This document shows, piece by piece, positions 39,257 to 58,647 of a DNA stretch of 63,549 bases (the first letter of the stretch is position 1; the number at the start of each line of letters is the position of its first letter). The notes beneath the pieces are model-generated. The model had not been told where the DNA came from, did no database searches, and saw only the letters and a list, made by a program, of their open reading frames with translations. The translations under genes were made by a program, and so were the position numbers. Location: the NCBI RefSeq assembly GCF_008107625.1, contig NZ_SDKK01000020.1, positions 27,256-90,804 of the forward strand, given 5' to 3'. The DNA is from Zoogloea oleivorans. GTDB lineage: Bacteria; Pseudomonadota; Gammaproteobacteria; Burkholderiales; Rhodocyclaceae.

Positions 39257-40825
39257 TTATTGCCCCTGGGTGACAGCCATGGGTTTGGCGGCCCTGCTGG
39301 TGTCGGTCTGGCGGGGGGCGGGTTTGTCTGCGTGAAAGGTCTTCTTGAGGCGCTTCCAGCCGATGACGACCGAGCTGCTGCCGAGCACCACGCCCATCAG
39401 CACCCAGGTGAGCATCCAGGCGTCCCACAGGGGGCGCTGAGCGAGCCAGCCGATGTCCCAATGGTGAATGGCGGACCATAGCCAGCGGTAGGCGCGGCGG
39501 CTGGTGTCCTGACGCAGCAGCAGGCGGCCGTCCTGGGGATCGAGGTACAGGCGGGTCGCGGCGGCATCGGCGAGGTCAATCTGCAGTACCGGCAGGGGGC
39601 GATCGAAGGCAGCCTGACCACGCCGCGCGTAGTAGTAGCTGTCGTATTCGGTGATGAGCGCCTGGCTCGCCACCGGGGTCTTGTCGGTCAGGCGTTCGGC
39701 AGCGGCAAGCAGGGCGCTGGTCTGGAAGTGCAGGCTGCCGCCGTCTACTGGCTGGGGCAGGCGCCGGCCGTCGCGGGTGAGGCCGAGCAGCACGGTGGTG
39801 TCGCCAAGGCGGCGCCAGGCCAGTTCGACGATGTCGCGGTTGTCGGTATCGGTGACGAAGGCTGACGGGCGCCAGTCGCGCATGCTCGCCGGCAGGCTGC
39901 TGCCCTGGTAGCGGAGCAGTTCGGCCCGGTTTGGGGCGGCGGGGGAGAACAGTCCGAAGGGATTGCCGTTGAGGTAGCCACTGAAGGCCCATAGCAGGGC
40001 GAAGCTGCCGCCCAGCAGGCCGGTCCAGAAATGCCACTTGAACCAGAATTCCCGGTACGGCTGTTTGCGTCCCTGACTGTAGGTGGCCCGGCCGCCCCAG
40101 CCCGGACGCCAGCGTTGCCAGCCGATGATGAGGCCGGTGAGGGCGCCGGCAAAGGCGAAGCCGCCCAGCCAGGTCAGGACGGTGCGGCGGGTGTCGGCGG
40201 ACAGGCCGAGGGTTTCCAGCGGGCGCAGCAGATGGATCCAGTTGCCGGTCCAGTACAGCGCCCGGTCGAGTCGGGTGGAGTCGCGCACGACTTCGCCGGT
40301 GATGGCCGACACCAGCAGCTCGCGGCTGCCGTCGCCGATGGCGAAACGGTGGAAGGGGCGCAGGGCTTCGTAATTGCGCACGGCGCTGTCCTGGGCACCG
40401 GTGTCGATGTAGCGGATGTCTGTGCGCTCATCGCCAGTCCAGTGGCGTGCAATGCTTGCGGCGTCATTCACCGAGGCGCCGTCGAGGCGGCCGTTGATGG
40501 CCGACAGGGCGAAGCGTTTTCCCTGGCTGTCTTCGATCAGCCAGCGGGCTTCCGCACCCTGGCGAACCAGGCGGGCATCGATGATGGTGGCGGGCTTGCC
40601 ATCGAATAGCATCTGACGCTGGATGGCGCTGCGCTCCCAGGCCTGACCAAGGGACAGCCATCCGGATTGGGGCTGAAGGCTTTGGGCGTGGGCAAGCTGC
40701 TCGGCACGGTTCAGGGCCGAGGCGTCCGAGTACATGATGACCAGCCCGGACAGGAACCACAGGGACATGAACACCGCCAGGGCAATGCCTACCCAGCGAT
40801 GGATCTGGTAAAGGAGACGTTTCAC
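39257..40825 (-). CDS. PepSY-domain inner-membrane protein
   Basis: A 522-residue membrane protein of the PepSY-associated TM family. The start MKRLLYQIHRWVGIALAVFM is typical. There are four helices (about 10-32, 205-228, 255-285 and 470-495), the last ending VVIGWKRLKKTF. The long periplasmic region between helices carries PepSY-like segments. Relatives are often linked to ferric or other metal reduction at TonB-dependent uptake sites; a reductase role here is inference. It is the first gene of a minus-strand unit with lectin-like, DsbD-like and redoxin genes, and a sigma-54 promoter lies 74-88 bp upstream of its ATG. Confidence 0.88.
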   Translation of the reverse strand: MKRLLYQIHRWVGIALAVFMSLWFLSGLVIMYSDASALNRAEQLAHAQSLQPQSGWLSLGQAWERSAIQRQMLFDGKPATIIDARLVRQGAEARWLIEDSQGKRFALSAINGRLDGASVNDAASIARHWTGDERTDIRYIDTGAQDSAVRNYEALRPFHRFAIGDGSRELLVSAITGEVVRDSTRLDRALYWTGNWIHLLRPLETLGLSADTRRTVLTWLGGFAFAGALTGLIIGWQRWRPGWGGRATYSQGRKQPYREFWFKWHFWTGLLGGSFALLWAFSGYLNGNPFGLFSPAAPNRAELLRYQGSSLPASMRDWRPSAFVTDTDNRDIVELAWRRLGDTTVLLGLTRDGRRLPQPVDGGSLHFQTSALLAAAERLTDKTPVASQALITEYDSYYYARRGQAAFDRPLPVLQIDLADAAATRLYLDPQDGRLLLRQDTSRRAYRWLWSAIHHWDIGWLAQRPLWDAWMLTWVLMGVVLGSSSVVIGWKRLKKTFHADKPAPRQTDTSRAAKPMAVTQGQ

Positions 40826-40898: not shown

Positions 40899-40913
40899 GC
40901 AATCTTGATGCCA
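40899..40913 (-). promoter_or_regulatory. Sigma-54 promoter for PepSY operon
   Basis: Read on the minus strand: TGGCATCAAGATTGC, with GG (40912-40911) and GC (40900-40899) separated by exactly ten bases. The -12 TTGC is perfect and the -24 differs from TGGCAC at one base. Expected transcript start is near 40887, 62 bp before the ATG at 40825. Confidence 0.7.
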
Positions 40914-40968
40914 CCCTGGTTTGTCGAAAAAGACCATTTTTATCAGTTGCTTAGTCTGTGGGGCGAGG

Positions 40969-40997
40969 CAGCCTGCTGCGCCATGTGCAGCAGGCTG
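40969..40997. promoter_or_regulatory. Strong hairpin / possible enhancer upstream of PepSY promoter
   Basis: CAGCCTGCTGC (40969-40979) and GCAGCAGGCTG (40987-40997) form a perfect 11-bp inverted repeat with a 7-base loop. It lies 34 bp after the lectin-like gene 2 stop and about 95 bp upstream of the predicted PepSY transcript start. It could terminate the lectin-like transcript (no T-run follows) or serve as an activator site; the sequence cannot decide. Confidence 0.5.
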
Positions 40998-41030
40998 CTG
41001 GTGAGCTGTGTGTTGGCGGGCAATAAAAGC

Positions 41031-41720
41031 TCAGTCGGCCGCGAAGCAGTAGAAGTAACCTGCGCCGCCGGTGCTGATCAGGTTCTCCTGGCTGCAGCCA
41101 CGGCTGGCGTGGGTGGAATTCCATGACACGTTGCCGCCGGTTGCGCCACGGTTGGTGCGGTCGGAGTGGCCGAGCTGGACGGTGCCTTCGCTGCTGCTCG
41201 TGTAGTTCTTGCAGGTGTGGTCGGCGGCGTCGGTGTAGGCGGTGCCGTCGGGCCTGGAGCCGGTGAGGATGTCATGGTCGTTGGGCGTTTCGCCGACCCC
41301 CTTGATCGGCGTGCCCTTCTCGGTCAGCGTGGTCAGGCGGTGCACGTTGCTGCCGAGCTGGCCGAGTTCGACCGTGTCGCCATGCAGGTGGGCCACGTTG
41401 TTGGCGACGATGGCGCCCTTGGCGTTGGCCCACGGGCCCTTGCCGATGCGGTCGCGGGCGTTGACGGCGGGCTGGCCGTTGGCGGCCTGGGTGCTCAGGT
41501 AAGCGCGCCAGGTGCGATTGCCGGCGCCGACGGCACTGGCGAGCTTCTGGCAGTGCGCGTCGGCACCGCTCAGACCGCCCAGGTCGGCGCCCTTGCCGAG
41601 GCCGCTGCTGGTGACGAAGAAGCCGAGGGGCTGGGCCGGTGCGGCGGGGGCTGCTTGCTGGGCGAGGGCCACTGTGGCGTTGAACAAAAAGGCGCCGAGG
41701 AGCGCGTGGTGGATCTGCAT
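41031..41720 (-). CDS. Secreted lectin-like (DUF1554/endostatin-like) protein, copy 2
   Basis: A 229-residue exported paralogue of the protein at 38541-39221. Signal peptide from ATG 41720 (MQIHHALLGAFLFNATVALA). It shares LGFFVTSSGLGKGADLGGLS, ADAHCQKLASAVGAG, ARDRIGKGPWANAKG, HDILTGSRPDGTAY, DHTCKNYTSS and the SRGCSQEN...YCFAAD ending, with the four conserved Cys. The signal peptide and C-terminal third differ from copy 1. It follows the first TonB receptor across an intrinsic terminator with no promoter of its own that I can see, so readthrough may drive it. The ligand is unknown. Confidence 0.8.
   Translation of the reverse strand: MQIHHALLGAFLFNATVALAQQAAPAAPAQPLGFFVTSSGLGKGADLGGLSGADAHCQKLASAVGAGNRTWRAYLSTQAANGQPAVNARDRIGKGPWANAKGAIVANNVAHLHGDTVELGQLGSNVHRLTTLTEKGTPIKGVGETPNDHDILTGSRPDGTAYTDAADHTCKNYTSSSEGTVQLGHSDRTNRGATGGNVSWNSTHASRGCSQENLISTGGAGYFYCFAAD
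41455..41631. repeat. Near-identical 177-bp segment shared with the first lectin-like gene
   Basis: The partner copy is 38956-39132. The sharp edges of identity inside two otherwise diverged genes point to gene conversion rather than a simple recent duplication. Confidence 0.85.
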
Positions 41721-41738
41721 GGCGGATTCTCCGTTACT

Positions 41739-41768
41739 CAAAAAAAGCCCGGGGAGTTACCCCGGGCT
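41739..41768 (-). terminator. Intrinsic terminator after TonB receptor 1
   Basis: GCCCGGGG (41747-41754) pairs with CCCCGGGC (41760-41767) around a five-base loop; on the minus strand the stem is followed directly by a run of seven or so T. It lies 27 bp after the receptor stop codon and before the lectin-like gene 2. Confidence 0.9.
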
Positions 41769-41794
41769 GAAGGACGAGGACGATTCGGCTTGGC

Positions 41795-44611
41795 TTACAG
41801 CTTTCCGGTGAACATCACGCCGAACCAGCGCTGGGTGGCCGGGTTGTAGCTGTTCCATGACTTGGACAATGGGGTGTCGTCGGCAAAGGCATTCTTGACC
41901 AGCAGGCTCACGTCATAGGACTTGTCCGTGCGGCCGATGCCGATGGCCAGATCGGTGGTGCTGTAGTCGGAGATCCAGCCGTAGGTGGACAGGGAGTTGT
42001 CCGAGTTGAAGCGGCTGTAGTAGGCCGTGTTGAAGCTGGCGTGGAACTCCTTGTCGCCCAGCACCGGCTTGCGGTAGTCGCCGCCGAAGTTGAAAGCCCA
42101 CTTCGATGCGCCGGGCAGGGTCTTGCCGGTGAAGTCCGTGTAGGCCGGGGCGCCGCTGTAGTTGTCTTCGTTCGCCAGGGCGGCGTTCTTGAAGTCCTTG
42201 TAGCGGGCGTCGTTGTAAGAGCCGGCGAAGCGCAGCGTCACGTTGCGGATGCCGCCATACACGCCATCCACCTCGATACCCTTGGCCTCGACCTTGGCCA
42301 CGTTGCCGGTGGCGGAGGTGTAGTAGTTGGTGCCATCGGCGTTGAGGCCGGTGGTGTATTGGTCAAGCACGCGCACCGACTGCTGGTAGTCGCGGATCTT
42401 GGTCAGGTAGAGGGCCGTGTTGAGGATCAGGGTCTTGTCGAGCAGGGCAGACTTGAGGCCCAGTTCGAAGGAGTTGGTCTTCTCCGGTTTGACCAGGTTG
42501 GAGAGGCCGTTGGTCAGCTGGGAAATGCCTGCTTTCTCGCCGTACTGCCACGAGAAGTAGCCGGTCTGGTTCGGGTTGAACTTGTAGGACGGGCTGACCA
42601 CGAAGGCCGGCTGAGTGTCGCGGTAGGATTCGGCGCGGGTCTGGTTGAACAGCACGCCCATCTGCGAGGCACGGATCGCCTTGGCATCCGACACCTGGCG
42701 CTTCTGGTCTGCCGTCAGGCTGTTGTAGGCCGCACCCGGGTTGCCTGGGTCGACGGCAACGCCGAAATACTTGTTGGCGACCTTGTCGGCCAGGCTCAAC
42801 TGGGTGGCGTTGTTGGTGCCAAGCACGCCCTGGCTGTTGGAGGCAAAGCCGCCGAGCTGCACGCCATTGACTGCCACCGGGTTGAGTTCGGCGCCGTTGC
42901 CGTAGTCGCGAACAAAGCTGGAGCCGGTGTTGGTCCGGTCTTCGCGGGTCAGGCGGATGCCGGTGGTCAGGGTCAGCGGCTCGGTCAGGTGCCAGTTGGC
43001 CTGGGCGAAGATGGCACCGCTCTTGTTCTTGATGCTTTGCAGGCCCGTCGGCGAGTTGTAGGCCATGGTCAGGCGGTCCAGCGAGTTCTGCATCAGCACC
43101 TGACCGGCCGCGGTGGCGCTCAGGCGGCCGTACTGACCGTTGTTGGCGAACCACGCGCCGGCATCGTTGCCCCATTCACGCTGGTACTCGGAGCTGTTGC
43201 TGACGTTGATGAGGTACAGGCCGGCCTGGTAGTCCACAAAGCCGCCGGCCTTGGAGCTGATCCGCAGTTCCTGGCTGCGCTGGCTGTAGTCGTTCCAGAA
43301 ACCGCCGGAGTTGCGGTGGATGTCGAAGGGCGTGCCTTCGTCGTTTACCGCGTTGAAGTGGTAGTCCTTGTAGGCCGTGATGGACGTCAGGGTGTGATCG
43401 GCGACGTTCCAGTTGAGTTCGAGCGATGCACCGCGGCTGCCGGTTACCAGCGGGCGGGCGGTATCGGCATTCACCGAGTTGCCGTTGCGACCGCCGTAGA
43501 GGTAGTCCTTCTCGTAGGTGTAGTTGCCTTGCTGGGTGAACCAGCCGCGGCTGAGGCGCGTTTTGGCGTCGGTGCCGAGGGTGTTGGTGGTGCCGTTGGA
43601 GTAGACCGTCGGGGTCGGCGTGTTGATCGTGCGGCCGTTGGTGTATTCGCCGGCGCGCGGCTGCATTTCCAGGGCCAGGCGGGCGTTGAAGTCGGCCGTC
43701 GGGGTCAGCAGAAACTGGACGCGGCCGGAAACCCGGTCGATGTTCTGGTAGGACTGATCCCGGTTGTCGGCATTGATCATGTCACCGCGACCCTTGTCGA
43801 CCACGAAGGCGCCGCGCCAGGCCAGCAGGTCTTCCACGATGGGACCGCCGGCGGCGAGCTTGCCAATCACCCGGTCACGCTGGCCGAGGGTCAGCGAGTA
43901 GTCGGCGCTGGGCGTGAAGGAGGGCTTGCGGGTGGAGATGTTGATGACGCCGAGACTGGTGTTCTTGCCGAGCAGGGTGCCCTGCGGGCCGCGGGTGACT
44001 TCGACGGCTTCGACGTCGTGGTAGTTGAAGCTGGAGGTCAGCGCGTTGTAGGCGAAGTTCACGCCGTCGACGATCACGCCGACGCTGGGGTCCTGGGCCT
44101 CGGTCTGGCTCTGCTTGCCGATGCCGCGGATGGACAGGCTGGAGGTGCGCTGGTTGCCCTGGTTCCAGGACACGTTGCCGAGGCGCTGGGTGATGGCCTT
44201 GATGTCGTCGGCGCCGGTGCGGTCGAGTTCCTTGCCGGTCACCACGGACACCGACAGGGGTACATCCTGCAGTTTTTCAATGCGGTTGCGGGAGCGGATC
44301 ACCACGGCGTCGAGGGCGACGTTTTCTTCGGCAGCCGGGGCGACAGTGGCCACCGGGGCGGCGACAGGTGCCGGGGCCGGAGCGGCAACACCCTGCTTCT
44401 TGTTCAGGTCCTGCTGGGCTTTTTCGAGGGCCTGCTGGAGGCGGGTGACTTCGGCCTGCAGTTCGGAGGCGGATTTTTCCTGAGCTTGAACGCCGCCGGC
44501 AGCAAGGAAGGCGACGGCTGCCACGGCGGCGGCAAAGGGGGTCAGGCGAAACTGGACGGTTTTGTTGTGGCGTGCCGCTTGGGCTGCCCGCTTGATATTG
44601 TTTTGGCTCAT
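41795..44611 (-). CDS. TonB-dependent outer-membrane receptor 1
   Basis: A 938-residue receptor. Signal peptide about 1-44 (FAAAVAAVAFLAAGGVQAQ), then an unusual coiled-coil stretch (ELQAEVTRLQQALEKAQQDL) and an Ala/Pro linker. The plug (about 105-230) has VVIRSRNRIEKLQDVPLSVS, LSIRGIGKQSQTEAQDPSVG and VEAVEVTRGPQGTLLGKNTS. A 22-strand-type barrel ends RWFGVMFTGKL. The closest general class is the FecA/BtuB-like and sphingomonad-type receptors with a plug carrying DPSVGVIVDGV. The substrate is not predictable from sequence. It has a near-perfect sigma-54 promoter and is paralogous to receptor 2 at 44915-47743. Confidence 0.93.
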   Translation of the reverse strand: MSQNNIKRAAQAARHNKTVQFRLTPFAAAVAAVAFLAAGGVQAQEKSASELQAEVTRLQQALEKAQQDLNKKQGVAAPAPAPVAAPVATVAPAAEENVALDAVVIRSRNRIEKLQDVPLSVSVVTGKELDRTGADDIKAITQRLGNVSWNQGNQRTSSLSIRGIGKQSQTEAQDPSVGVIVDGVNFAYNALTSSFNYHDVEAVEVTRGPQGTLLGKNTSLGVINISTRKPSFTPSADYSLTLGQRDRVIGKLAAGGPIVEDLLAWRGAFVVDKGRGDMINADNRDQSYQNIDRVSGRVQFLLTPTADFNARLALEMQPRAGEYTNGRTINTPTPTVYSNGTTNTLGTDAKTRLSRGWFTQQGNYTYEKDYLYGGRNGNSVNADTARPLVTGSRGASLELNWNVADHTLTSITAYKDYHFNAVNDEGTPFDIHRNSGGFWNDYSQRSQELRISSKAGGFVDYQAGLYLINVSNSSEYQREWGNDAGAWFANNGQYGRLSATAAGQVLMQNSLDRLTMAYNSPTGLQSIKNKSGAIFAQANWHLTEPLTLTTGIRLTREDRTNTGSSFVRDYGNGAELNPVAVNGVQLGGFASNSQGVLGTNNATQLSLADKVANKYFGVAVDPGNPGAAYNSLTADQKRQVSDAKAIRASQMGVLFNQTRAESYRDTQPAFVVSPSYKFNPNQTGYFSWQYGEKAGISQLTNGLSNLVKPEKTNSFELGLKSALLDKTLILNTALYLTKIRDYQQSVRVLDQYTTGLNADGTNYYTSATGNVAKVEAKGIEVDGVYGGIRNVTLRFAGSYNDARYKDFKNAALANEDNYSGAPAYTDFTGKTLPGASKWAFNFGGDYRKPVLGDKEFHASFNTAYYSRFNSDNSLSTYGWISDYSTTDLAIGIGRTDKSYDVSLLVKNAFADDTPLSKSWNSYNPATQRWFGVMFTGKL

Positions 44612-44651
44612 GACGAGACAGTTCCTGTAAAAGATTCCGTCCCGTACTTTC

Positions 44652-44666
44652 GCAATTGGTGTGCCA
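44652..44666 (-). promoter_or_regulatory. Sigma-54 promoter for TonB receptor 1
   Basis: Minus-strand TGGCACACCAATTGC: perfect TGGCAC at -24, TTGC at -12 and GG-N10-GC spacing (GG 44665-44664, GC 44653-44652). Predicted transcript start is about 44640, 29 bp before the ATG at 44611. Confidence 0.85.
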
Positions 44667-44735
44667 CTGCTCCCTGAAGGGTTTATATGAAATTCTGGAA
44701 TCGATATTTCCGCGGATTAGTCGTGTAAAAACAGG

Positions 44736-44753
44736 GGCCTTTTTGTAAAGGCC
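44736..44753 (-). terminator. Small hairpin between TonB receptor genes
   Basis: GGCCTTT/AAAGGCC, a 7-bp stem with a 4-base loop. It is a candidate end of the receptor 2 transcript, located 162-179 bp after that stop codon. Weak evidence alone. Confidence 0.4.
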
Positions 44754-44872
44754 GGTTTGCGTTCGGCATGGAATCGTTACGGAACGAAGAGTGCCTGGGC
44801 GAGCCGCACAGCGGGTGGGTGCTGCAGGGGCAACAGTTGCGTGTGCACGCTGTTTGCTGCGGCGCAGTGCGG

Positions 44873-44892
44873 CCCACCCCTTGCGGGGCGGG
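44873..44892 (-). terminator. GC-rich hairpin after TonB receptor 2
   Basis: CCC-A-CCCC pairs with GGGG-C-GGG around TTGC, 23 bp after the receptor 2 stop codon. No T-run follows. The interval from here to 44666 also holds a partly palindromic stretch (44830-44857, GCAACAG...CTGTTTGC) that could be an activator site for the receptor 1 promoter. Confidence 0.4.
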
Positions 44893-44914
44893 TTGTGTGG
44901 CGGGATGTTTGGCC

Positions 44915-47743
44915 TTAGAGCTTGCCGCTGAGAACGATGCCGAACCAGCGCGGGTAGGGGTAGGGCGTGTAGCTGTTCCAGCCCTTTTCGTGGGCGTTGT
45001 TGTTGAAGGCGTTCTTGGCGATCAGTGTCACGTCATAGTTGCCCTTGTGGTGACCGAGGCCGATGGCCAGGTCGGTGGTGGCCCGGTCCGGCACCCACGA
45101 GTAGTCCGACATCAGCTCGTCGGTGGTGGTGCTGCCGATGTAGGCGGTGGTGAAGCTGGTGTGGAAGACCTTGTCGCCAAAGACCGGGCGCCGGTATTCA
45201 CCGCTTACATTGACCGTCCAGTACGGGGCTTCGCCGAGGCGCTGACCACTGCGGTCGATGAAGGGGCTGGACAGGTAGGCCAGCTCCGAGGGTTTGCCGG
45301 CGTTGGGGAAGTCCTTGTAGCGGGCGTCGTTATACGAGGCGGCGGCCCGCAAGCTGGTGTAGCGGAGGCCGTTGTAGGCGGCATCCACTTCGACGCCGGA
45401 AACCTGCACCTTCGGTACGTTGCCCTGCACGCTGGTGTAGGCCAGCGGGTTGGTCACGTTGTTGTTGATGTTGTCCTGGGTGGCGAACTGGTCCACCGCG
45501 ACGACGTTCTGCTGGTAGTCCTTGATGTCCATCAGATACACGTCGGCGTTGAGCGTCAGCGTCTTGTCGAGCAGGAAGGTCTTTACCCCCAGTTCATAGG
45601 CGTTGGTGCGCTCCGGCTTGACCGTGGTGGCGACGCCGTTGACGTTGAGGGCCGAGCCGGATTTCTCTCCGTACTGCCAGCTGGCATAGGCCGTCACGTT
45701 GTCGTTGAACTTGTACTTGGGGCTGAGTACCGCAGTGTGGATCTGGTCCTTGTAGTCGCTGCGCACGCCGGTGATCAGCGCACCGATCTGGGATGCCCGG
45801 ATGGCCTTGGCGGCGGCGACCTGGGCTTTCTGGGCGGGGCTCAGGCTGGCGTAGGAGGCCGCGCCGAAGTACTTCTGGGCGACCGAGTCGGCCAGCGCCA
45901 GTTGCGCCGTGCTGGGATTGACCAGATTGCCCGCCGTGCCGTTGGCCACACTGGCGTTGGAGTAGGCGATGGAATTGAAGCCGCCCAGCGCCGTGCCGCG
46001 GGACGACACCGGGTTGAGCGCAGCGCCGACGCCGTTGTTGCGCAGGTCGGCAAAGTTCTCGGTGGTGCGCCGCTCCGTGCCGATGCGCAGCCCGGCGGTG
46101 ACGGTGAGTGCGTCGCTGAGGTGGAAGTTGGCCTGACCGTAGAGGGCCTGGCTGAAGGTATTGATGTTCTGCTGGCCGAAGCGGAACAGATCCTTGAGGG
46201 AGTTGGTCAGCAGTGCCCCGCCTGCGCTGGCGTTGAGGCCGGCGTTGGTGACCAGGGTGTTGTACTGGTTGTTGTTGGCGTACCAGGCGCCGGCGTCGGC
46301 ACCATAGCCGTTCTTTGATTCCACCTCGTTCTCGGTGCGCAGGAAATACAGGCCGGTCTGGTAATCGACGAACTTGTTGGGCTTGCCGGCGAGGCGGAAT
46401 TCCTGGCTGGTCTGGTTGTAGAAAACGCTGCCACCCCCGTTTTTCTGGACATCGAAGGGCGTGCCTTCGTCGTTGCGTGCCTGGAAGTTGTAAATGCGGT
46501 GGGCCGTGATCGAGGTGAGGGTGAGCTTATCGGTCAGGTTGTAATTCACTTCGGCCGATGCGCCCGAGGTGCCGGCGGTCTGCCCCTGGGTCTGGTTCTG
46601 GTACACCTTGCCTTCCCGGCCGATGCTGTTGAGTAACTGGTCGTAGGTGAAATTGCGTCCCTGGAACCAGTCCCGTCCAAGCCGGGCCTGGGTGCCAGTG
46701 CCGTTGGGGTCGACCAGGGTACCGTTGGCATAGCGCTGCGGTTGCTGGACGAATTCCGTGAAGCCGTTCTGGAGCTGGGTGGCGCGGGGCTGGATGTCGA
46801 GGCTGAGTTTGGCGTTCAGGTCGGCGGTGGGCGTCAGCAGGAACTGGGTGCGCGCACTGACGCGGTCCCGGTTGTACATGGTGTCTGCTTCCCGGTCGGT
46901 GTCCTCGGCAACGGTGTAGGCGCCGCGCTGCTTGTTCACCACGAAGGAGCCGCGCCATGCCAGCAGGTCGTCAATGATGGGGCCGCCGAGGGCGCCCTTG
47001 ATGAAGACCGTCTCCCGTTGCCCGTAGGTCACTTCATAGTTGGCGCTGGGGGTGAACGACGGCCCCCGGCTGGTGACGGTGACCGCACCGGCGCTGGCCC
47101 CCTTGCCGAGCAGGGTGCCCTGGGGGCCGCGGGCCACTTCGACCGATTGCACGTCGTAGAAGTCGAAGTTGCCGAGCTGGCTGAGGCCGTAGCTGACGCC
47201 GTCCACGATCAGCCCGACGCTGGGGTCCTGGGTTTCGGTGAAGCCGCGCCGGCCCAGGCCGCGGATCGACAGCGACGAGCCGCGCGTGTTGTTCTGGTTG
47301 AAGGTGATGTTGCCCAGGCGCTTGGTCAGCGCTTCCAGGTCGGTAGCCTGTTCGCGGTCGAGTTCGCCACCCGAAACCACCGAGATCGATACCGGCACAT
47401 CGTGCAGCTTTTCGAGCTGGCGCCGGCTGCGGACAACGACCGAGTCGAGGGTCTGCGTTGCCGTGGCTGCTTCGACGCTTTCTTCCCGGGCGGCTACGGC
47501 TGTCGCGACCGGTGCGGCCTGGGGTGTTGCGATTCCGCCGCGGTTTCTTTCCAGTTCCTTTTTGAGATTCTGGATTTCTGTATTGGCCTTCTTCAATTCT
47601 GCCTGAAGTTCGGCGGCTGATTTCTCGTCCGCTGCGGCGAGCGGTGCGGAGGTGCCAATAGCCAGTCCTGCAAGAAACAGGGCCAGTGGCTTGAGACGGG
47701 AGGGGTGTGCTGAACGTCGGCTTTCTTTTGTATTTTGATTCAT
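44915..47743 (-). CDS. TonB-dependent outer-membrane receptor 2
   Basis: A 942-residue receptor paralogous to receptor 1. Signal peptide about 1-38 (ALFLAGLAIGTSAPLAAAD), coiled-coil stretch (ELQAELKKANTEIQNLKKEL), linker, then a plug with VVVRSRRQLEKLHDVPVSIS, LSIRGLGRRGFTETQDPSVG and VQSVEVARGPQGTLLGKGAS. The barrel ends RWFGIVLSGKL. The shared layout with receptor 1, including the coiled coil between signal peptide and plug, shows an old duplication. It is divergent from the first DUF1549/DUF1553 operon across a 551-bp regulatory region and has its own sigma-54 promoter. Substrate unknown. Confidence 0.93.
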   Translation of the reverse strand: MNQNTKESRRSAHPSRLKPLALFLAGLAIGTSAPLAAADEKSAAELQAELKKANTEIQNLKKELERNRGGIATPQAAPVATAVAAREESVEAATATQTLDSVVVRSRRQLEKLHDVPVSISVVSGGELDREQATDLEALTKRLGNITFNQNNTRGSSLSIRGLGRRGFTETQDPSVGLIVDGVSYGLSQLGNFDFYDVQSVEVARGPQGTLLGKGASAGAVTVTSRGPSFTPSANYEVTYGQRETVFIKGALGGPIIDDLLAWRGSFVVNKQRGAYTVAEDTDREADTMYNRDRVSARTQFLLTPTADLNAKLSLDIQPRATQLQNGFTEFVQQPQRYANGTLVDPNGTGTQARLGRDWFQGRNFTYDQLLNSIGREGKVYQNQTQGQTAGTSGASAEVNYNLTDKLTLTSITAHRIYNFQARNDEGTPFDVQKNGGGSVFYNQTSQEFRLAGKPNKFVDYQTGLYFLRTENEVESKNGYGADAGAWYANNNQYNTLVTNAGLNASAGGALLTNSLKDLFRFGQQNINTFSQALYGQANFHLSDALTVTAGLRIGTERRTTENFADLRNNGVGAALNPVSSRGTALGGFNSIAYSNASVANGTAGNLVNPSTAQLALADSVAQKYFGAASYASLSPAQKAQVAAAKAIRASQIGALITGVRSDYKDQIHTAVLSPKYKFNDNVTAYASWQYGEKSGSALNVNGVATTVKPERTNAYELGVKTFLLDKTLTLNADVYLMDIKDYQQNVVAVDQFATQDNINNNVTNPLAYTSVQGNVPKVQVSGVEVDAAYNGLRYTSLRAAASYNDARYKDFPNAGKPSELAYLSSPFIDRSGQRLGEAPYWTVNVSGEYRRPVFGDKVFHTSFTTAYIGSTTTDELMSDYSWVPDRATTDLAIGLGHHKGNYDVTLIAKNAFNNNAHEKGWNSYTPYPYPRWFGIVLSGKL

Positions 47744-47788
47744 GGCTCTTTTTTAACAATGAATGAAGGGCGGACTCCATCGTTATTA

Positions 47789-47803
47789 GCATTAGCTGTG
47801 CCA
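47789..47803 (-). promoter_or_regulatory. Sigma-54 promoter for TonB receptor 2
   Basis: Minus-strand TGGCACAGCTAATGC: perfect TGGCAC at -24, TGC with one mismatch at -12 and ten bases between GG (47802-47801) and GC (47790-47789). Predicted start is about 47777, 34 bp before the ATG at 47743. Confidence 0.75.
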
Positions 47804-48219
47804 TGCGGTTTTTCTGGTGATTGAAGCGTGCTTTATGCAGATTTAAAGATATGTCTTCGTGAGGTGTTTTTAATTTACCCTGAAGAAACATGGGTTATAT
47901 ATGAATGCGAATGAGATATGGGATTTTGATGGAATGTCTGTCTGTGCTCAATGCTGTTTGTCAGGTGTCTGAATACGGACATGACGATGGGGTTTACTCT
48001 TTTATTCCTTTTTGAATCTCGTGATGATTGTCGGGGCGGGGGTTTTTGGTGCTGTCTGATAATCAGCAGCCAAGCTGGACGGGCTGCTGATGGAGCAACA
48101 TGAAATGCTGCTGAAATGCCATTTTGATCAAAGGGTTATTGTTCGGTTTTTTGTTTTTAAGTGCTGATTTGAAACAACTTATTTTATTTGCAGGCTGTTT
48201 TGAATGTGTACGCCTGGCA
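47804..48219. other. Divergent regulatory region between TonB receptor 2 and DUF1549 operon
   Basis: This AT-richer stretch has no gene. It contains TGTC-N8-GACA (47966-47981), a perfect inverted repeat at 48062-48091 and the palindrome TTTGATCAAA near 48124. Sigma-54 promoters at both ends point outward, so activator sites for both are expected here. Confidence 0.7.
48062..48091. promoter_or_regulatory. Perfect 10-bp inverted repeat, candidate sigma-54 activator site
   Basis: ATCAGCAGCC (48062-48071) and GGCTGCTGAT (48082-48091) separated by ten bases. Its centre is about 170 bp upstream of the predicted start of the DUF1549 operon and 300 bp upstream of that of TonB receptor 2, distances typical of enhancer-binding-protein sites. 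The binding protein is unknown. Confidence 0.5.
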
Positions 48220-48235
48220 CTGGCACGATAGCTGC
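48220..48235 (+). promoter_or_regulatory. Sigma-54 promoter for first DUF1549/DUF1501 operon
   Basis: CTGGCACGATAGCTGC: perfect TGGCACG at -24, CTGC at -12 and GG (48222-48223) to GC (48234-48235) with ten bases between. A second TGGCAC directly precedes it. Predicted start is about 48246, 49 bp before the ATG at 48295. Confidence 0.85.
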
Positions 48236-48294
48236 GACAGGAGTGTCATGTGTTTCGTGGCGATCTTGTTAATAGCGTTTCAGGGAGTGTGCAG

Positions 48295-50640
48295 ATGCGT
48301 GTCAGAAATGGAGTGTGTGTAGCGGTCTTGCTGGCGGTGACGTCTTCCGCCATCGGCGCTGAGCTCGAGAAGAAACCTGCCGCCGCGGCCGCGACGGGGA
48401 AATCGGCGGTTCCCAACGGCTGGGCTTATTTGCCGGTGAAAAACCCGGAAGCCCCGGCGGTCAAGCAGGGCAAATGGGTTCGTACTCCTGTCGATGCTTT
48501 CGTGCTGGCCAGGCTGGAAGAAAAGGGCATCAAGCCCTCCGCCGAAACGGATCGCGCCACTTTCATTCGCCGCGCCACGCTGGATGCGTGGGGCTTGCTG
48601 CCGACCCCGGAAGAGGTCAAGGCTTTCGTCAATGACAAATCGCCCAATGCCCATGAAAAGCTGGTCGACCGCTTGCTGGCGTCGCACCATTTCGGCGAGC
48701 GTCAGGCCCGGCGCTGGCTCGATCTGGCCCGCTACGCCGACAGCTCCGGTTTCCAGAACGATGCGACCCGCCCGAATAACTGGCGCTACCGCGATTACGT
48801 GATCAAGGCCTTCAACGACGACAAGCCTTTCGATCGCTTTATCAAGGAACAGGTTGCCGGCGACGAGTTGTGGCCCGATAGCCAGGACGCGAAGATTGCC
48901 ACCGGCTTCCTGGCCGGCTATCCCGACAATGCCAACTCCCGCGATCTGGTGCAGCGCAAGTACCAGATCACCACCGACATCACCGACACCATCGGTGAAA
49001 CCTTTCTGGCCTCGACGACCGGCTGCGCCCGCTGCCACAACCACAAGGCCGACAAGCTGAGCCAGAAGGAGTATTTCCAGTTCCAGGCCTTCTTCGCCAA
49101 CACGGCCTTCGATCAGCGTCTTCCGTTGCTCAAGGGCACCGAAACCGAGTGGGACAAGAAATTTACCGAGCAGCAGGCCAAGTACCGCGAAGCCACCAAG
49201 GCCATCCGCGACAAGCAGGCGGCCGTGCTGGCGCCGTACAAGGAGGCGGGCGTCAAGTATCAGAAGGAGCGTTACCTGACCGACAGCCGGGAATCCATCT
49301 TCAAGGCCGAGAAGGACTGGAACGCGCTGGACCGCTGGGTGAACTTCCGCCACAAGACGGTTTTCAATGCGGATACCGATACCGCTGGCTACCTGCGCCT
49401 GACCGCCGAGAACAAGGACCACGCCGATCACACGCCTGACCGGATTGTTGCCTGGAAGGACTACCAGAAGCTGCAGGCCGAACTGCGCAAGTTCGACCAC
49501 CTGCGCCCCGAGCGCGGTTCCACCAACATCACCGCGGCGACGGAACTTGGTCATTCGGATTCGCCGCCCACCTTTGTGCGCTTCGGTGGCATCCACGAGC
49601 GTCCGCTTGAAGAAGTCCAGCCGGGCATTCCGGCCCTGTGGGGTGGCGACAAGATCGACATCAAGCCGACGGCAACCTCGTCCGGCCGCCGCACGGCGCT
49701 GGCCAACTGGCTGTCCAGCGCCAACAACCCGCTGACGGCGCGGGTGTATGTGAACCGCGTGTGGGGACAGTATTTCGACAAGGGGCTTGTCGGCACGCTG
49801 GCCGACTTTGGCCGTGCCGGTGAGAAGCCGACCAATCCGGAACTGCTCGACTATCTGGCCACCAGCTTCGTCAAGAACGGCTGGAGCGTGAAGAAGCTGC
49901 AACGGGAGATCATGCTGTCCAGCGTCTACCGTCAGTCTTCCGACCCGCGTGACGATGTGGCCAGGCTGGATCCGAAGAACGAGTTGCTGGCGGTGTACCC
50001 CCGCAAGCGCCTTGAAGCCGAGGAAATCCGTGATGCCCTGCTGTACGCATCCGGTCAGCTGACCGATGTGGTGGGCGGCCCGTCGGTGTTCCCGCCGATT
50101 GCCAAGGTGCTCGAAGGCGGTCAGGCCGACTTTGACGGCAACCGTGCCTGGAGCGTGTCGAAGGACAAGGCCGACTGGAACCGTCGCAGCGTCTATATCT
50201 TCAGCCGCCGCAGCCTGCCGTACCCGCTGCTGCAGAACTTCGATCCGGCCAACCCTTCCCAGGCCCACCACAAGCGTGACGTGACCACCACGCCGCTGCA
50301 GGCTCTGACGCTGTTCAACAGCGACATCGTGGTGAATTGGTCGCAGGCGCTGGCTGGTCGGATCATCAATGAAGCGGGCAAGGACGAATCTGCCCAGTTC
50401 AACCGCCTGTACCAGATCCTCTTCTCCCGCGAGCCGAGCAAGGCCGAGACGGCTGCGCTGAAGGCCTTCCTGGCCAGGGAAGAAAGCGTCGTCCAGAAAA
50501 AGGTTGCCGCCGGCAAGTTCGAAGCCGCGGTGCCGGTCGGCCTGAAGGATCCGTCCAGCATCAATCCGGTGCGTGGCGCGGCCTTCGTCGATCTGGTGCA
50601 CACCGTGGCCAATTCCAACGATTTCGCCTACCGCTTCTGA
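48295..50640 (+). CDS. DUF1549/DUF1553 haem-motif protein 1 (planctomycete-type)
   Basis: A 781-residue exported protein. Signal peptide MRVRNGVCVAVLLAVTSSAIGA; DUF1549 (PSCyt2) about 40-260 with RTPVDAFVLARLEEKGIKP, ERQARRWLDLARYADSSGF and a haem-binding CARCHNHK at about 245; DUF1553 (PSD1) about 460-705 with GRRTALANWLSSANNPLTAR, YVNRVWGQYF and RDVTTTPLQALTLFNSD. It lacks the separate N-terminal PSCyt1 cytochrome domain many relatives carry. Such proteins are abundant in Planctomycetes and uncommon in Betaproteobacteria; function is unknown. ATG 48295 has a GGGAG site and starts the signal peptide; an ATG 45 bp upstream is poorer. It pairs with the DUF1501 gene 35 bp downstream. Confidence 0.92.
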   Translation: MRVRNGVCVAVLLAVTSSAIGAELEKKPAAAAATGKSAVPNGWAYLPVKNPEAPAVKQGKWVRTPVDAFVLARLEEKGIKPSAETDRATFIRRATLDAWGLLPTPEEVKAFVNDKSPNAHEKLVDRLLASHHFGERQARRWLDLARYADSSGFQNDATRPNNWRYRDYVIKAFNDDKPFDRFIKEQVAGDELWPDSQDAKIATGFLAGYPDNANSRDLVQRKYQITTDITDTIGETFLASTTGCARCHNHKADKLSQKEYFQFQAFFANTAFDQRLPLLKGTETEWDKKFTEQQAKYREATKAIRDKQAAVLAPYKEAGVKYQKERYLTDSRESIFKAEKDWNALDRWVNFRHKTVFNADTDTAGYLRLTAENKDHADHTPDRIVAWKDYQKLQAELRKFDHLRPERGSTNITAATELGHSDSPPTFVRFGGIHERPLEEVQPGIPALWGGDKIDIKPTATSSGRRTALANWLSSANNPLTARVYVNRVWGQYFDKGLVGTLADFGRAGEKPTNPELLDYLATSFVKNGWSVKKLQREIMLSSVYRQSSDPRDDVARLDPKNELLAVYPRKRLEAEEIRDALLYASGQLTDVVGGPSVFPPIAKVLEGGQADFDGNRAWSVSKDKADWNRRSVYIFSRRSLPYPLLQNFDPANPSQAHHKRDVTTTPLQALTLFNSDIVVNWSQALAGRIINEAGKDESAQFNRLYQILFSREPSKAETAALKAFLAREESVVQKKVAAGKFEAAVPVGLKDPSSINPVRGAAFVDLVHTVANSNDFAYRF

Positions 50641-50675
50641 CCAACCCCGATTATTCGAAATAAGGAAAACCGATC

Positions 50676-52127
50676 ATGAGTACCAACCGTCGCGACTTTC
50701 TTCTCAAGGCCGGGCTGGGTGTAGGCGGTGTTGCCGCCAGCGGCTTCATCCCGGGCGTGGGCTACATCAATGCCGCCACGGCGGCCGAATTGATCGACCC
50801 GCTGGCCGCCAAGCAGCCGCACTTTCCGGGCAAGGTCAAATCGGTGATCTGGCTCCACCAGAACGGCGCGCCTTCCACGCTGGACCTGTATGACTACAAG
50901 CCGGAGCTCTTCAAGCTGGCCGGCCAGCCGGTGCCGGCGTCCTTCCTGAAAGGCATCAAGACCTCCACCCAGGGCGGGGTGAACAAGCTTTTTGCGTCCA
51001 ACAAGCGCACCTTCAAGCAGTACGGCGAGAGCGGTGCGTGGTTCTCCGAACTGCTGCCCAACCTGGCCCAGCAGGCCGACAAGCTGGCCTTCATCAAGTC
51101 GAGCGTGACTGTTGGCGCGACCCACGACATCTCGATCCTGAAGCTCAACACGGGCGATCTGAACCCGGGCCGCCCGTCCCTCGGGGCGTGGATCAATTAC
51201 GCGCTGGGTTCCCTCAACCCGGACCTGCCGTCCTACGTGGTGCTCTACAACGGCGAGCAGGAACCCAGCGCCGGCTCGGTGAACTGGAGCTCCGGCTTCC
51301 TGCCGGCGGTTTATCAGGGCACGGCCTTCCGGCCCAGCGATTCGCCGATTCTCTACCTCGAGCGTCCGGACCTGCGTTCCGCCGACCAGCAGCGGGCCTC
51401 GCTGGATCTGCTGAAGCATCTCAACAAGCTCGGCGGCGATCGTCGTCCGAACGACACCGAACTGCGGGCCCGTCTCGAATCCTACGAACTGGCTGACCGC
51501 ATGCAGAAGGCCGCGCCGGAAGCGGTCGATCTGTCGAAGGAGTCCGAAGCCACGCTCAAGCTCTACGGCATCGACGACCCGACGAGCGAAAGCTACGGCA
51601 AGGTGTTGCTGCGTGCCCGTCGCCTGGTGGAGCGGGGCGTTCGCTTCATCCAGGTGGTGTCCGGCTATCCGAGCAACGTGCAGGATAACGAGCGGCGCAG
51701 CTGGGACGCCCACAGTGACCTGGACGGCAACCACGCCACCCAGGCACGCATGGTGGACAAGCCCATCGCCGGCCTGCTGGCTGATCTCAAGACCCTCGGC
51801 CTGCTCGATTCGACGCTGGTGGTGTGGGCCTCCGAGTTCTCCCGCACCCCGTGGGGCGAGAGCGGTACCGGCCGCGACCACAATCCGTGGGGTTACACCC
51901 AGTGGGTGGCGGGCGGCGGCGTGAAGGCCGGCTACACCTTCGGCGAGACGGACGAGCTGGGTGTGCAGGTAGCCGACAAGGACAAGGCCGTGGATACCTA
52001 CGACCTGCACGCCACGGTGCTGCACCTGCTCGGCCTTGATCACCTCAAGACCACCTTCATCAACAACGGCCGTTCGGAACGCCCGACCGTGGTGTATGGC
52101 AAGGTCGTGAAGGAAATCCTGGCCTGA
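50676..52127 (+). CDS. Tat-exported DUF1501 protein 1
   Basis: A 483-residue protein with a twin-arginine signal (TNRRDFLLKAGLGVGGVAA) ending before AAELIDPLAAKQPHF. DUF1501 proteins share the sulfatase/alkaline-phosphatase fold; family blocks seen are SVIWLHQNGAPSTLDLYDYK, RARRLVERGVRFIQVV, SWDAHSDLDGNHATQ, LVVWASEFSRTPWGESGTGR and DHNPWGYTQWVAGGG, rich in potential metal ligands (D, H). No enzyme activity is established for the family. An AAGGAA site precedes the ATG. It is co-transcribed with the DUF1549/DUF1553 gene, the usual pairing of these families, and has a close paralogue at 56338-57783. Confidence 0.92.
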   Translation: MSTNRRDFLLKAGLGVGGVAASGFIPGVGYINAATAAELIDPLAAKQPHFPGKVKSVIWLHQNGAPSTLDLYDYKPELFKLAGQPVPASFLKGIKTSTQGGVNKLFASNKRTFKQYGESGAWFSELLPNLAQQADKLAFIKSSVTVGATHDISILKLNTGDLNPGRPSLGAWINYALGSLNPDLPSYVVLYNGEQEPSAGSVNWSSGFLPAVYQGTAFRPSDSPILYLERPDLRSADQQRASLDLLKHLNKLGGDRRPNDTELRARLESYELADRMQKAAPEAVDLSKESEATLKLYGIDDPTSESYGKVLLRARRLVERGVRFIQVVSGYPSNVQDNERRSWDAHSDLDGNHATQARMVDKPIAGLLADLKTLGLLDSTLVVWASEFSRTPWGESGTGRDHNPWGYTQWVAGGGVKAGYTFGETDELGVQVADKDKAVDTYDLHATVLHLLGLDHLKTTFINNGRSERPTVVYGKVVKEILA

Positions 52128-52136
52128 TAAGGGATG

Positions 52137-52181
52137 CAGGAATCGCTTCGGGCCCTGCGCCGCAAGCGATTCCTGCTTTTC
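52137..52181 (+). terminator. Intrinsic terminator inside first cassette
   Basis: GCAGGAATCGCTT (52137-52149) pairs perfectly with AAGCGATTCCTGC (52165-52177), a 13-bp stem with a 15-base loop followed by TTTT. It begins 9 bp after the DUF1501 stop and lies before the peroxiredoxin gene, so it should reduce expression of the two genes downstream. Confidence 0.85.
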
Positions 52182-52218
52182 CGAATACAAAACAAGAAAT
52201 GCTGAGGAAATGACTTTG

Positions 52219-52803
52219 ATGAACCGCGCGCTTGTTCCCGCTCTTTTGCTGTCTGCCCTGTTTGCCACGCCCTCCCTGGCCGCCCTGAATGAGGGCGACA
52301 AGGCGCCGGACTTCAGCGCCCAGGCCTCCCTGGCCGGCAAGGCCTTCAATTACACCTTCAAGGACGCCCTGAAAAAGGGGCCGGTGGTGGTCTATTTCTA
52401 TCCGTCGGCCTTTACCGGCGGCTGCAATCTGCAGGCTCACACCTTTGCCGAAAATATCGACAAATTTGCCGCGGCCGGTGCCACGGTGATTGGCGTGTCC
52501 CTCGACAGCATCGGGCGTCTGAATGCCTTCTCGGCCGACCCCGAATACTGCGCCGGCAAAGTGGCGGTGGCCTCCGACCCGGACGGCAAGATCGCCCGCT
52601 CTTTCGACCTGGCCGTGGTCGACACGCCGGCCGGTCGCAAGGACAGCAAGGGCAATGACATCGACCATGGCCGCGTGGATCGGGTGACCTACGTCATCAA
52701 GCCCGACGGCAAGGTCGCCGCCACCATCGGGGGGGTCGCCCCGGTGGCCAACGTGGAAAAAGCCCTCGAAACCGTAACCCGTCTGGCGTCGGCCCGCCGC
52801 TGA
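52219..52803 (+). CDS. Periplasmic peroxiredoxin (AhpC/TSA family)
   Basis: A 194-residue exported peroxiredoxin, expected to reduce peroxides. Signal peptide MNRALVPALLLSALFATPSLA; LNEGDKAPDFSAQASLAGK starts the fold; peroxidatic Cys in YPSAFTGGCNLQAHTFAE, a second Cys in DPEYCAGKVAVASD; end typical of the BCP/Prx group (VIKPDGKVAATIGG). The usual PxxxT/SxxC proline-threonine context is changed (FTGGC). ATG 52219 is preferred over 52210 because the AGGA site is ten bases upstream, versus one for the earlier ATG. Its place between haem proteins and a cytochrome suggests protection from peroxide made by the neighbours. Confidence 0.88.
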   Translation: MNRALVPALLLSALFATPSLAALNEGDKAPDFSAQASLAGKAFNYTFKDALKKGPVVVYFYPSAFTGGCNLQAHTFAENIDKFAAAGATVIGVSLDSIGRLNAFSADPEYCAGKVAVASDPDGKIARSFDLAVVDTPAGRKDSKGNDIDHGRVDRVTYVIKPDGKVAATIGGVAPVANVEKALETVTRLASARR

Positions 52804-52816
52804 GGTCGATTTGCCG

Positions 52817-53530
52817 ATGAGGGGTTTGCGAGGAAGGGGCCAGGCCCCGGTGAGTTGTTTGGGAGGCGTGGTCCTGGCGCTGCTGCTGGCAGCGCTCGTC
52901 CTGTCTGCGCCGGTCATGGCCCAGGCCGGGAAGGGGAAGGCGGCTGCCGTGGCTGTCGCCAGGGGCGATCCGCAGCGTGGAGCGCTCAAGTCGGAGGACG
53001 AGCGTTGCCAGGAGTGCCACGGGGCGGACGGTCACGGTTTCGGGCAGAGCGCCAGTTCCGAGGGGCGTCACCCCAAGCTGGCCGGGCAGTCGGCGGCGTA
53101 CATCATCAAGCAGCTCGACAACTTTCGCAGCGGCGCGCGCAAGCATGACGTGATGAGCATGATGGCCAGAACGGTGGATCCAGCAGACATCGTCGACATT
53201 GCCGCCTACTTTGCCAGCCGCACGCCGATGAAGGGCGATGGAACGGGTGACAGCGCGGCGGGCAGGGCGCTCTACGAAAAGGGCGATCCGGCGCGGGGCG
53301 TAACGGCCTGCATCACCTGCCATGGCCCGGGCGGCAAGGGGCTGGCCGGGCTGGGGGCCGAATCGCCGCTGATTGGCGGGCAGGAGTGGCGCTACCTGGA
53401 GAAGCAACTGCTCGACTGGCGCAGTGGCGAGCGCAGCAACAGCCGCGACGGTGTCATGAACACGGTGATCCGCCCGCTCACCGACCAGGATATTCGTGCC
53501 TTGAGCGACTACCTTTCGGGGCTGCCCTGA
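52817..53530 (+). CDS. Dihaem cytochrome c (c4-like)
   Basis: A 237-residue exported cytochrome with two haem motifs, CQECH (GADGHGFG) and CITCH (GPGGKGL), each in a separate class I domain, with HPKLAGQSAAYIIKQLDNFR and IGGQEWRYLEKQLLDWRSGE as family-type segments after each haem. The signal/anchor helix is near the N-terminus (VVLALLLAALVLSAPVMAQA). Start ATG 52817 is preferred over the TTG at 52811; GAGG lies about 11 bases upstream. It begins 13 bp after the peroxiredoxin stop and ends the first cassette. Likely an electron carrier between periplasmic redox enzymes and a terminal oxidase. Confidence 0.9.
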   Translation: MRGLRGRGQAPVSCLGGVVLALLLAALVLSAPVMAQAGKGKAAAVAVARGDPQRGALKSEDERCQECHGADGHGFGQSASSEGRHPKLAGQSAAYIIKQLDNFRSGARKHDVMSMMARTVDPADIVDIAAYFASRTPMKGDGTGDSAAGRALYEKGDPARGVTACITCHGPGGKGLAGLGAESPLIGGQEWRYLEKQLLDWRSGERSNSRDGVMNTVIRPLTDQDIRALSDYLSGLP

Positions 53531-53751
53531 GCGCATTCCGTTCAGGTGGCCGGTGCCGGGCTGCTGACGAACTGTTGGTGCCGCAGCACGGCCGTTTATC
53601 CGCTTGCTGGGCTGGCAACAGTCGGCCTGGTTGCATGGCATTGAAAAGACCCCGGCTGGACCTGGAAGGCGTTGAAATAACGTTGAATTTGTTTTTCAAA
53701 TTCAAATGCTTGATTTTATTTCCCATGTCTTTCGAATCAACGCCTGTGGGG
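53531..53751. other. Intergenic region upstream of second cassette
   Basis: No gene is seen. It holds GGCTGCTGA at 53559-53567 (the same half-site as in the inverted repeat at 48082) and an ACTGTTG...CAACAGT pair (about 53571-53618), candidates for activator sites of the sigma-54 promoter that follows. Confidence 0.45.
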
Positions 53752-53767
53752 TCGGCACGGAATCTGC
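53752..53767 (+). promoter_or_regulatory. Sigma-54 promoter for second DUF1549/DUF1501 operon
   Basis: TCGGCACGGAATCTGC, with GG (53754-53755) and GC (53766-53767) ten bases apart; one mismatch at -24 (CGGCAC) and one at -12 (CTGC). Predicted start is about 53779, some 79 bp before the ATG at 53858. Confidence 0.75.
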
Positions 53768-58640: not shown

Positions 58641-58647
58641 GCGATCC

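Follow-up and report, generated by a model that had tools for sequence, protein, structure and literature searches.

A stretch of 63,549 nucleotides from the draft genome of Zoogloea oleivorans (5.68 Mb), here called the window (G000:C36:27256-90804), carries a block of five suggested transcription units, P1 to P5, which were delimited from Pfam matches and a list of open reading frames (ORFs), with unit extents inferred from gene order. We propose, with a probability of about 0.72, that this block is a multi-unit sulfur-starvation regulon of the SfnR type, in which sigma-54 promoters would drive the expression of TonB receptors, thiol-redox proteins, cytochromes and pairs of DUF1549–DUF1553 and DUF1501 proteins. 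SfnR is described in excerpts of one study as a CysB-regulated sigma-54 activator required for the use of dimethyl sulfone (PMC8234197). The regulatory part of the proposal is strongly supported by the promoter sites, an enhancer motif, the conservation of both and the presence and linkage of a candidate activator, all read from sequence, whereas the binding of the activator to the motif, the sulfur signal, the enzymatic role, the substrate and the chemistry are what we infer. The initial annotation had proposed a single sigma-54 regulon with its activator outside the window; to that account we add the enhancer motif, a candidate for the activator and the sulfur link.

All five units are preceded by a GG-N10-GC site on the strand originally assigned to it, and in 5/5 a spacer of 10 bp separates GG from GC within a TGGCAC-N5-TTGC context (Table 1). 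The PepSY start found at the distance first given (40825) is a GTG rather than an ATG. Each of 32 gene starts in the window was scored by its best sense-strand site within 300 bp, using a -24/-12 weight matrix with weights set from consensus frequencies. The five unit starts score 12.8–15.2, whereas the remaining 27 gene starts score at most 9.9, the adhesin, secretion and signalling genes among them, as the initial annotation had claimed; 84 of 4000 random 300-bp stretches reach 12.7. The density of matrix hits, which that annotation had put forward as a test, is uninformative because the promoter signal is one of placement relative to genes and not of raw density. The whole window holds nine matches of at least 12, little above the 6.5 of simulated sequence, because the four matches outside P1–P5 (10848-, 11001-, 27684+ and 48965-) sit inside coding sequence, and raw density was rejected as evidence. 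The whole genome, which encodes rpoN (PF00309 match, E 4e-18), contains 147 copies of TGGCAY-N6-TGC; the reversed control gives 93.

The promoters recur in relatives. A scan of a genome collection kept 79 loci, of which the 23 from proteobacteria (L055-L077) were used for the promoter comparison, with a sense-strand matrix score of at least 11 as the threshold. Such a site lies upstream of DUF1549a at 15/21 loci, of the first TonB receptor at 11/17, of the second at 7/7 and of DUF1549b at 7/8, and spacer bases have changed among the recurring sites. Controls from the same loci seldom reach the threshold (DUF1501a, 0/22; DUF1501b, 0/8; DsbD, 0/6; redoxin, 2/23; cytochrome c', 1/28), and neither does the opposite strand (DUF1549a, 1/21; first TonB receptor, 2/17). 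None of the seven PepSY loci reaches 11; four of them (L056-L059) score 10.9 at a constant distance. The six misses at DUF1549a comprise L061, L068 (10.5) and the methanotroph loci L071-L074. The one at L061 reflects a wrongly projected start, and a site of 16.0 is found there. At DUF1549b, the strong site is missing in L076.

The second shared element is a candidate enhancer, the dyad TGYTG-N6-CARCA. It was read from an alignment of the intergenic region between the second TonB receptor and DUF1549a in eight Zoogloea-type loci, together with the sites of the window; the aligned DNA has diverged except for the two -24/-12 sites and one island, and the island holds the dyad. No clear motif had emerged when the upstream regions of the five units were searched for simple palindromes and shared 10-mers. 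Five perfect dyads are found in the window (shuffled mean 0.41, no shuffle reaching five), four of them at P2, P4 and P5 and the fifth (34319) inside a GGDEF/EAL gene. Dyads lie about 80–200 bp upstream of P2, P4 and P5, where they match at 10/10, and of P1, where the match is weak. On this sequence evidence, membership of the regulon appears best supported for P2, P4 and P5, because the dyad of P1 is weak and P3 apparently uses the pair that lies closer to P4.

The dyad was then counted in the 280 bp upstream of 46 hand-picked promoters of the cluster or its neighbours and compared with 200 shuffles. A dyad of at least 9/10 precedes 42/46 promoters (shuffled mean 2.5, maximum 8) and a perfect one 32/46 (shuffled mean 0.09, maximum 2). 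All 28 promoters from loci outside the derivation of the motif have a dyad of at least 9/10, some of them being divergent pairs with dyads in common, and 3/119 control upstream regions have one. Perfect matches favor the 6-bp gap (32/46), other gaps giving 0–5 except for 15 at 9 bp, which we read as the shadow of an extended palindrome. Among dyad pairs, spacings of 31 bp (14) and 32 bp (13) are the most frequent; seven pairs are 34 bp apart, and the 12 cases at 3 bp are a shadow of the register. Together, rpoN, the recurring promoters and the common enhancer motif point to a single sigma-54 regulon, as first proposed.

The sigma-54 activator domain has 23 matches in the genome, 20 of them strong, and a profile search of the genome places 0/20 strong enhancer-binding-protein genes on the contig of the window, in agreement with the earlier placement of the activator elsewhere. 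The one close SfnR-like activator of the genome is a 351-amino-acid protein encoded at C77:4929-5981. It has an AAA+ domain and a C-terminal helix-turn-helix (HTH), and profile matches begin at residues 13-48; since it has no N-terminal sensor domain, it is probably controlled by its abundance. Homologues of this protein are linked to the cluster in other genomes: in L061 and L067 (54% and 57% identity to the C77 protein) about 8 kb separate the activator gene from the DUF1549 gene, and in G026 and G086 the distance to DUF1501 is about 20 kb. Among 150 genomes of the family, six have both cluster and activator, one has the cluster only, eight the activator only and 135 neither (Fisher p = 1.4e-6, uncorrected for relatedness; a strong DUF1501 match and a homologue at E <= 1e-88 were required, the latter limit being set after the homologue search). 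The two other genomes of the genus in this sample, G036 and G133, lack the cluster and have no close activator homologue. Over its 46 C-terminal residues, the C77 protein shares 39–63% identity with cluster-linked or sulfur-operon activators of other genera, in contrast to 15–33% with the other 19 activators of its own genome; three fusion proteins (L250, L252 and L253) were left out as not comparable. Thus, the common enhancer motif, the linkage and the co-occurrence make the C77 SfnR-like protein the proposed activator of the block.

Dyads also lie just upstream of the activator gene itself, where a weak -24/-12-like site (11.5) faces away from it, and a dyad pair with a sigma-54 site (13.1) precedes an RND-type operon one gene downstream. 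That operon, at 6559-14494 of L169 (C77 of the same genome), was recognized as an RND-type efflux operon by eye, and RND-like genes were likewise seen in L181 and L182, close to the DUF1549 cluster. SfnR-like genes longer than usual are found at L250:6824-9001, L252:1-1989 and L253:6965-8896; the ORF in L250, from Azospirillum, is annotated as an aliphatic-sulfonate ABC substrate-binding protein. This suggests that the long genes encode the activator fused to a sulfonate-binding domain, which is perhaps a built-in ligand sensor.

The link to sulfur comes from the relatives of the activator. Among plasmids, 77 records hold homologues at E <= 1e-90; nine were inspected, and in seven the activator gene adjoins msuE, sfnG, ssuD or ssuA genes, the remaining two being one unannotated record and one with no sulfur neighbor. 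The C77 protein is 52–59% identical to the activators of these seven records, which served as anchors. A sigma-54 site and a dyad of at least 9/10 lie within 450 bp upstream of an operon there in 7/7 of them, and the dyad is perfect in 5/7, counts made without a shuffle control. The dyad-bearing operon is msuE, sfnG or ssuD in six; the gene in L251 is annotated as a monooxygenase only, and L251 has two other sigma-54 units without a dyad. In a sister species (G094), which has SfnG and SsuD matches above the cut-off, a sigma-54 site (15.3) precedes the sfnG unit, accompanied by a 9/10 dyad at -173. At L183:12571-13869 (C23), the same genome has a second SfnR-like gene near a DszC/SfnB-like monooxygenase gene, and the DszC/SfnB-like gene has its own -24/-12 site (16.0) with a 10/10 dyad at -222.

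Several observations weigh against a sulfur-starvation regulon of this kind. SfnG and SsuD have no match in the Z. oleivorans genome, nor in G032 and G056, although all three genomes have the cluster and an SfnR-like activator, and the SsuA-family matches of Z. oleivorans are all below the cut-off; the sulfur link of this species therefore rests on the kinship of the activator and on the motif. The missing SfnG and SsuD could be explained by a cluster that takes the place of the monooxygenases, or by a different signal for the activator in this setting. Four SsuD loci above the cut-off in sister and related genomes have neither a dyad pair nor a sigma-54 site in the stretches covered, and among the SsuA loci of Z. 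oleivorans and its sister genomes the best case is a single 9/10 dyad close to a sigma-54 site (L244). A close SfnR-like gene is missing from one cluster genome, G111 (apparently identical to L069/G168), which does have the promoter and the dyad. The methanotroph loci L071-L074 and L076 carry the DUF1549/DUF1501 pair with neither a dyad nor a strong sigma-54 site at DUF1549, and the four methanotroph genomes all have an SfnR-like gene despite their dyad-free clusters, so the gene pair is not tied to SfnR everywhere. As for the motif, the dyad of P1 reaches only 8/10, and P3 has only the pair in common with P4, at 265 and 297 bp. The 46 promoters were chosen by hand, some divergent pairs among them have dyads in common, and 18 of the 46 are not independent of the motif (14/18 at 9/10 or better). 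At the looser threshold of 9/10, gaps of 2, 3, 9 and 12 bp also give matches at 16, 22, 34 and 18 of the 46 promoters. Perfect dyads number 54 in the genome of Z. oleivorans, against 32 for the reversed control; among the 34 examined, seven have a sigma-54 site 50–320 bp away, four of them in the window, the matches being the window units, two around the activator gene and C8:57729. The last (L219), in a flagellin region, was taken as chance.

Three other explanations were weighed. The regulon may be real and SfnR-like while its genes serve side effects of starvation, such as antioxidant defense, metal handling and membrane redox repair, and not sulfur uptake, which we hold to be rather unlikely. 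Redoxins, DsbD, cytochromes and PepSY proteins abound in the units, and sulfur starvation of Pseudomonas aeruginosa also induces antioxidant genes, lsfA for example, according to excerpts of one study (PMC12581299). However, uptake and catabolism are the better fit for units that encode two TonB receptors and a molybdenum hydroxylase, and likewise for what lies beside the cluster in relatives, namely a porin gene and SsuACB-like transporter genes, the latter classified in L061 (with an SsuA match below cut-off) and recognized by eye in L062, L065 and L181.

It is quite improbable, in our judgment, that a different enhancer-binding protein, or an SfnR-like protein with another signal, controls the block, with a dyad that resembles the general TGT-N10-ACA class. 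TGYTG-N6-CARCA is a sub-pattern of TGY-N10-RCA, a shape known from NifA sites, and both the 20 strong enhancer-binding proteins of the genome and its want of SfnG and SsuD matches would be compatible with such control; yet seven records show the dyad in front of operons next to SfnR-like genes, the C77 protein is singled out by linkage and co-occurrence, and its DNA-binding end is unlike those of the other 19. A last possibility is that a G+C-rich genome yields the GG-N10-GC sites by chance and that the units use ordinary promoters. This accords with a hit density close to that of simulated sequence and is nevertheless very improbable, given the gap in score between the five unit starts and the other 27, the recurrence of the promoters across genera and an enhancer motif at the expected distance.

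Under the SfnR-type regulon that we favor, sigma-54 RNA polymerase would wait at P1–P5, and scarcity of sulfate or cysteine would lead to synthesis of the SfnR-like activator. The activator would bind TGYTG-N6-CARCA dyads, often two of them 31–32 bp (about three helical turns) apart and mostly 80–200 bp upstream, and remodel the waiting polymerase; P3 would be driven through the dyads of P4 at 265–297 bp. The output would comprise two TonB receptors, a PepSY/DsbD/redoxin thiol-redox module, c-type cytochromes, a molybdenum hydroxylase and two pairs of a probably exported DUF1501 protein and a haem-bearing DUF1549–DUF1553 protein. These products may take up an organosulfur compound and process it oxidatively or hydrolytically in the periplasm.

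A more specific role for the DUF1549–DUF1553/DUF1501 pair is proposed tentatively, at less than even odds: under the SfnR-type activator, it could form a periplasmic haem-linked desulfurizing system that stands in for the cytoplasmic monooxygenases SfnG and SsuD. A large organosulfur or sulfate-ester substrate would enter through the TonB receptors and be cleaved or oxidized by the exported DUF1501 protein with its cytochrome partner, and cytochromes c, redoxins and DsbD would carry the electrons. In an alignment of 65 sequences, the twin arginine of DUF1501 is invariant, so that export by the twin-arginine translocation (Tat) pathway is probable, and the CxxCH of DUF1549 is also invariant in alignment. 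The C-terminal part of DUF1501 shows weak profile similarity to several sulfatases of the alkaline phosphatase/sulfatase superfamily, none of it significant (best 9s8a, E = 0.016). CxPxR is the signature of formylglycine (type I) sulfatases, and it has no invariant or near-invariant columns in the 65 DUF1501 sequences; an ordinary sulfatase was rejected because this signature is missing.

The pair occurs in many planctomycetes and verrucomicrobia, and identity outside Proteobacteria is 30–48% for DUF1501 and 30–38% for DUF1549. The domain pair and gene order are those of PSCyt2–PSD1 and DUF1501 genes in Planctomycetes, Verrucomicrobia and Acidobacteria. The Zoogloea genes differ in their betaproteobacterial host, the adjacent TonB receptors and the sigma-54 control, and the DUF1549 protein, whose nearest named relatives are Zoogloea records (identity up to 95%), has no extra N-terminal cytochrome domain of the sort seen in other alignment rows. 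Excerpts of one paper describe the functions of the PSCyt/PSD families as unexplained and sulfatase genes as often adjacent, and no mention of DUF1501 was found in the available part of its main text (PMC5615132).

The closest known system is the Pseudomonas sfn-msu regulon (SfnR, sfnG, msuEDC), which also uses sigma-54 -24/-12 promoters. The C77 activator is 58.5% identical to one beside msuE/ssuD on a P. aeruginosa plasmid, and the dyad of the block is also found upstream of msuE on that plasmid. The sfn-msu targets are flavin monooxygenases and their partners, as far as excerpts of one study describe them (PMC8234197), whereas those of the block are TonB receptors, PepSY, DsbD and redoxin proteins and planctomycete-type pairs, in a genome without SfnG and SsuD. 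Searches of open-licence literature yielded no paper linking DUF1501, DUF1549 or DUF1553 to SfnR or sulfur starvation. Thus, as far as searches show, the promoter type and activator are of a known kind and the target set is new. If the proposal is true, the SfnR regulon would extend beyond cytoplasmic monooxygenases and take in receptors of the outer membrane and redox enzymes of the periplasm. An activator of the sulfur-starvation type would also give a regulatory clue to the DUF1549–DUF1553/DUF1501 proteins, open to a growth test in culturable proteobacteria, and the enhancer motif could be used to seek SfnR-type targets elsewhere.

Table 1. Candidate promoters, dyads and genes of the five suggested units (window coordinates)
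Feature	Position	Strand	Basis or remark
P1 sigma-54 -24/-12 site TGGCATCAAGATTGCT, PepSY operon	40913-40898	-	matrix score 13.7
P2 sigma-54 site TGGCACACCAATTGCG	44666-44651	-	matrix score 14.4
P3 sigma-54 site TGGCACAGCTAATGCT	47803-47788	-	matrix score 15.2; conserved in alignment
P4 sigma-54 site TGGCACGATAGCTGCG	48221-48236	+	matrix score 12.9
P5 sigma-54 site CGGCACGGAATCTGCT	53753-53768	+	matrix score 12.8
Weak dyad (8/10) TGCACATGGCGCAGCA	40974..40989	-	76 bp upstream of P1, within reach of and overlapping a longer inverted repeat
Dyad (10/10) TGTTGCCCCTGCAGCA	44820..44835	-	169 bp upstream of P2
Weaker pair member (8/10) TGTCTGATAATCAGCA	48053..48068	+	between P3 and P4
Dyad (10/10) TGCTGATGGAGCAACA, conserved island	48085..48100	+	136 bp upstream of P4, 297 bp upstream of P3
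Dyad (10/10) TGTTGGTGCCGCAGCA	53573..53588	+	180 bp upstream of P5
Dyad (10/10) TGCTGGGCTGGCAACA	53605..53620	+	148 bp upstream of P5; 32 bp from the 53573 dyad
P1 unit: PepSY_TM membrane protein, first gene	39257..40825	-	GTG start; PF03929, 1.1e-14
P1 unit: secreted protein, weak endostatin/DUF1554-like match	38541..39248	-	E 4e-4, below cut-off; start approximate
P1 unit: DsbD-like thiol:disulfide transmembrane reductase	36336..38516	-	profile match
P1 unit: secreted redoxin/AhpC-TSA protein	35701..36330	-	AhpC-TSA 4.7e-14
P2 unit: TonB-dependent receptor 1	41795..44611	-	Pfam
P2 unit: 236-amino-acid protein	41031..41741	-	76% identity to the 38541 secreted protein
P3 unit: TonB-dependent receptor 2	44915..47743	-	Pfam
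P4 unit: DUF1549(PSCyt2)–DUF1553(PSD1) protein a	48250..50640	+	one CxxCH haem motif; likely start ATG 48295
P4 unit: DUF1501 protein a	50676..52127	+	Pfam, alignment; twin arginine invariant
P4 unit: AhpC/TSA redoxin	52210..52803	+	Pfam
P4 unit: secreted cytochrome, two CxxCH motifs	52811..53530	+	translation
P5 unit: DUF1549–DUF1553 protein b	53858..56311	+	Pfam
P5 unit: DUF1501 protein b	56338..57783	+	Pfam
P5 unit: cytochrome c'-like protein	57817..58215	+	E 4e-5, just under cut-off
P5 unit: cytochrome c	58459..59010	+	Pfam
P5 unit: molybdenum hydroxylase [2Fe-2S] subunit	59050..59535	+	Pfam
P5 unit: molybdopterin-binding subunit, same hydroxylase	59181..61781	+	profile match; true start probably near 59535

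The neighbors of the activator gene in single genomes include a family 2A encapsulin (Z. oleivorans), a serine acetyltransferase (L178) and, in L179, the cysteine desulfurase of family 2A encapsulins with a sulfate-binding protein. Encapsulin-type genes lie within about 6 kb of an SfnR-like gene at L169:138-1067, L174:5170-6099 and L179:13008-15831; the shell was recognized by a hidden Markov model (HMM) match in L169 and by eye in L174 and L179, and the desulfurase, its cargo, by an HMM match in L179. Family 2A encapsulin is induced by sulfur starvation in a cyanobacterium, according to excerpts of one report (PMC8049743). The encapsulin and cysteine desulfurase genes near the activator have no upstream sigma-54 site of at least 11.5 and were therefore kept out of the regulon. 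A short protein encoded beside the activator gene at L061:19634-20074 looks rhodanese-like by eye; it has no Pfam match, and its counterpart in L067 has no NCBIfam match.

Repeated dyad matches were seen elsewhere. Seven matches of at least 9/10 occur at multiples of 21 bp at L227:1424-1628 (C39 of Z. oleivorans) and three at 126-bp intervals in L233, and both probably reflect coding sequence of repeat proteins. In the remainder of the window, type I secretion genes (OEP, HlyD-type and two ABC) at 773-20543 adjoin a 4081-amino-acid ORF, an adhesin according to the initial annotation, with no strong sigma-54 site or dyad upstream. Two overlapping transposase-type ORFs (HTH_38/rve and HTH_21/rve) lie at 23812-25843, between a response regulator gene and a LamB gene.

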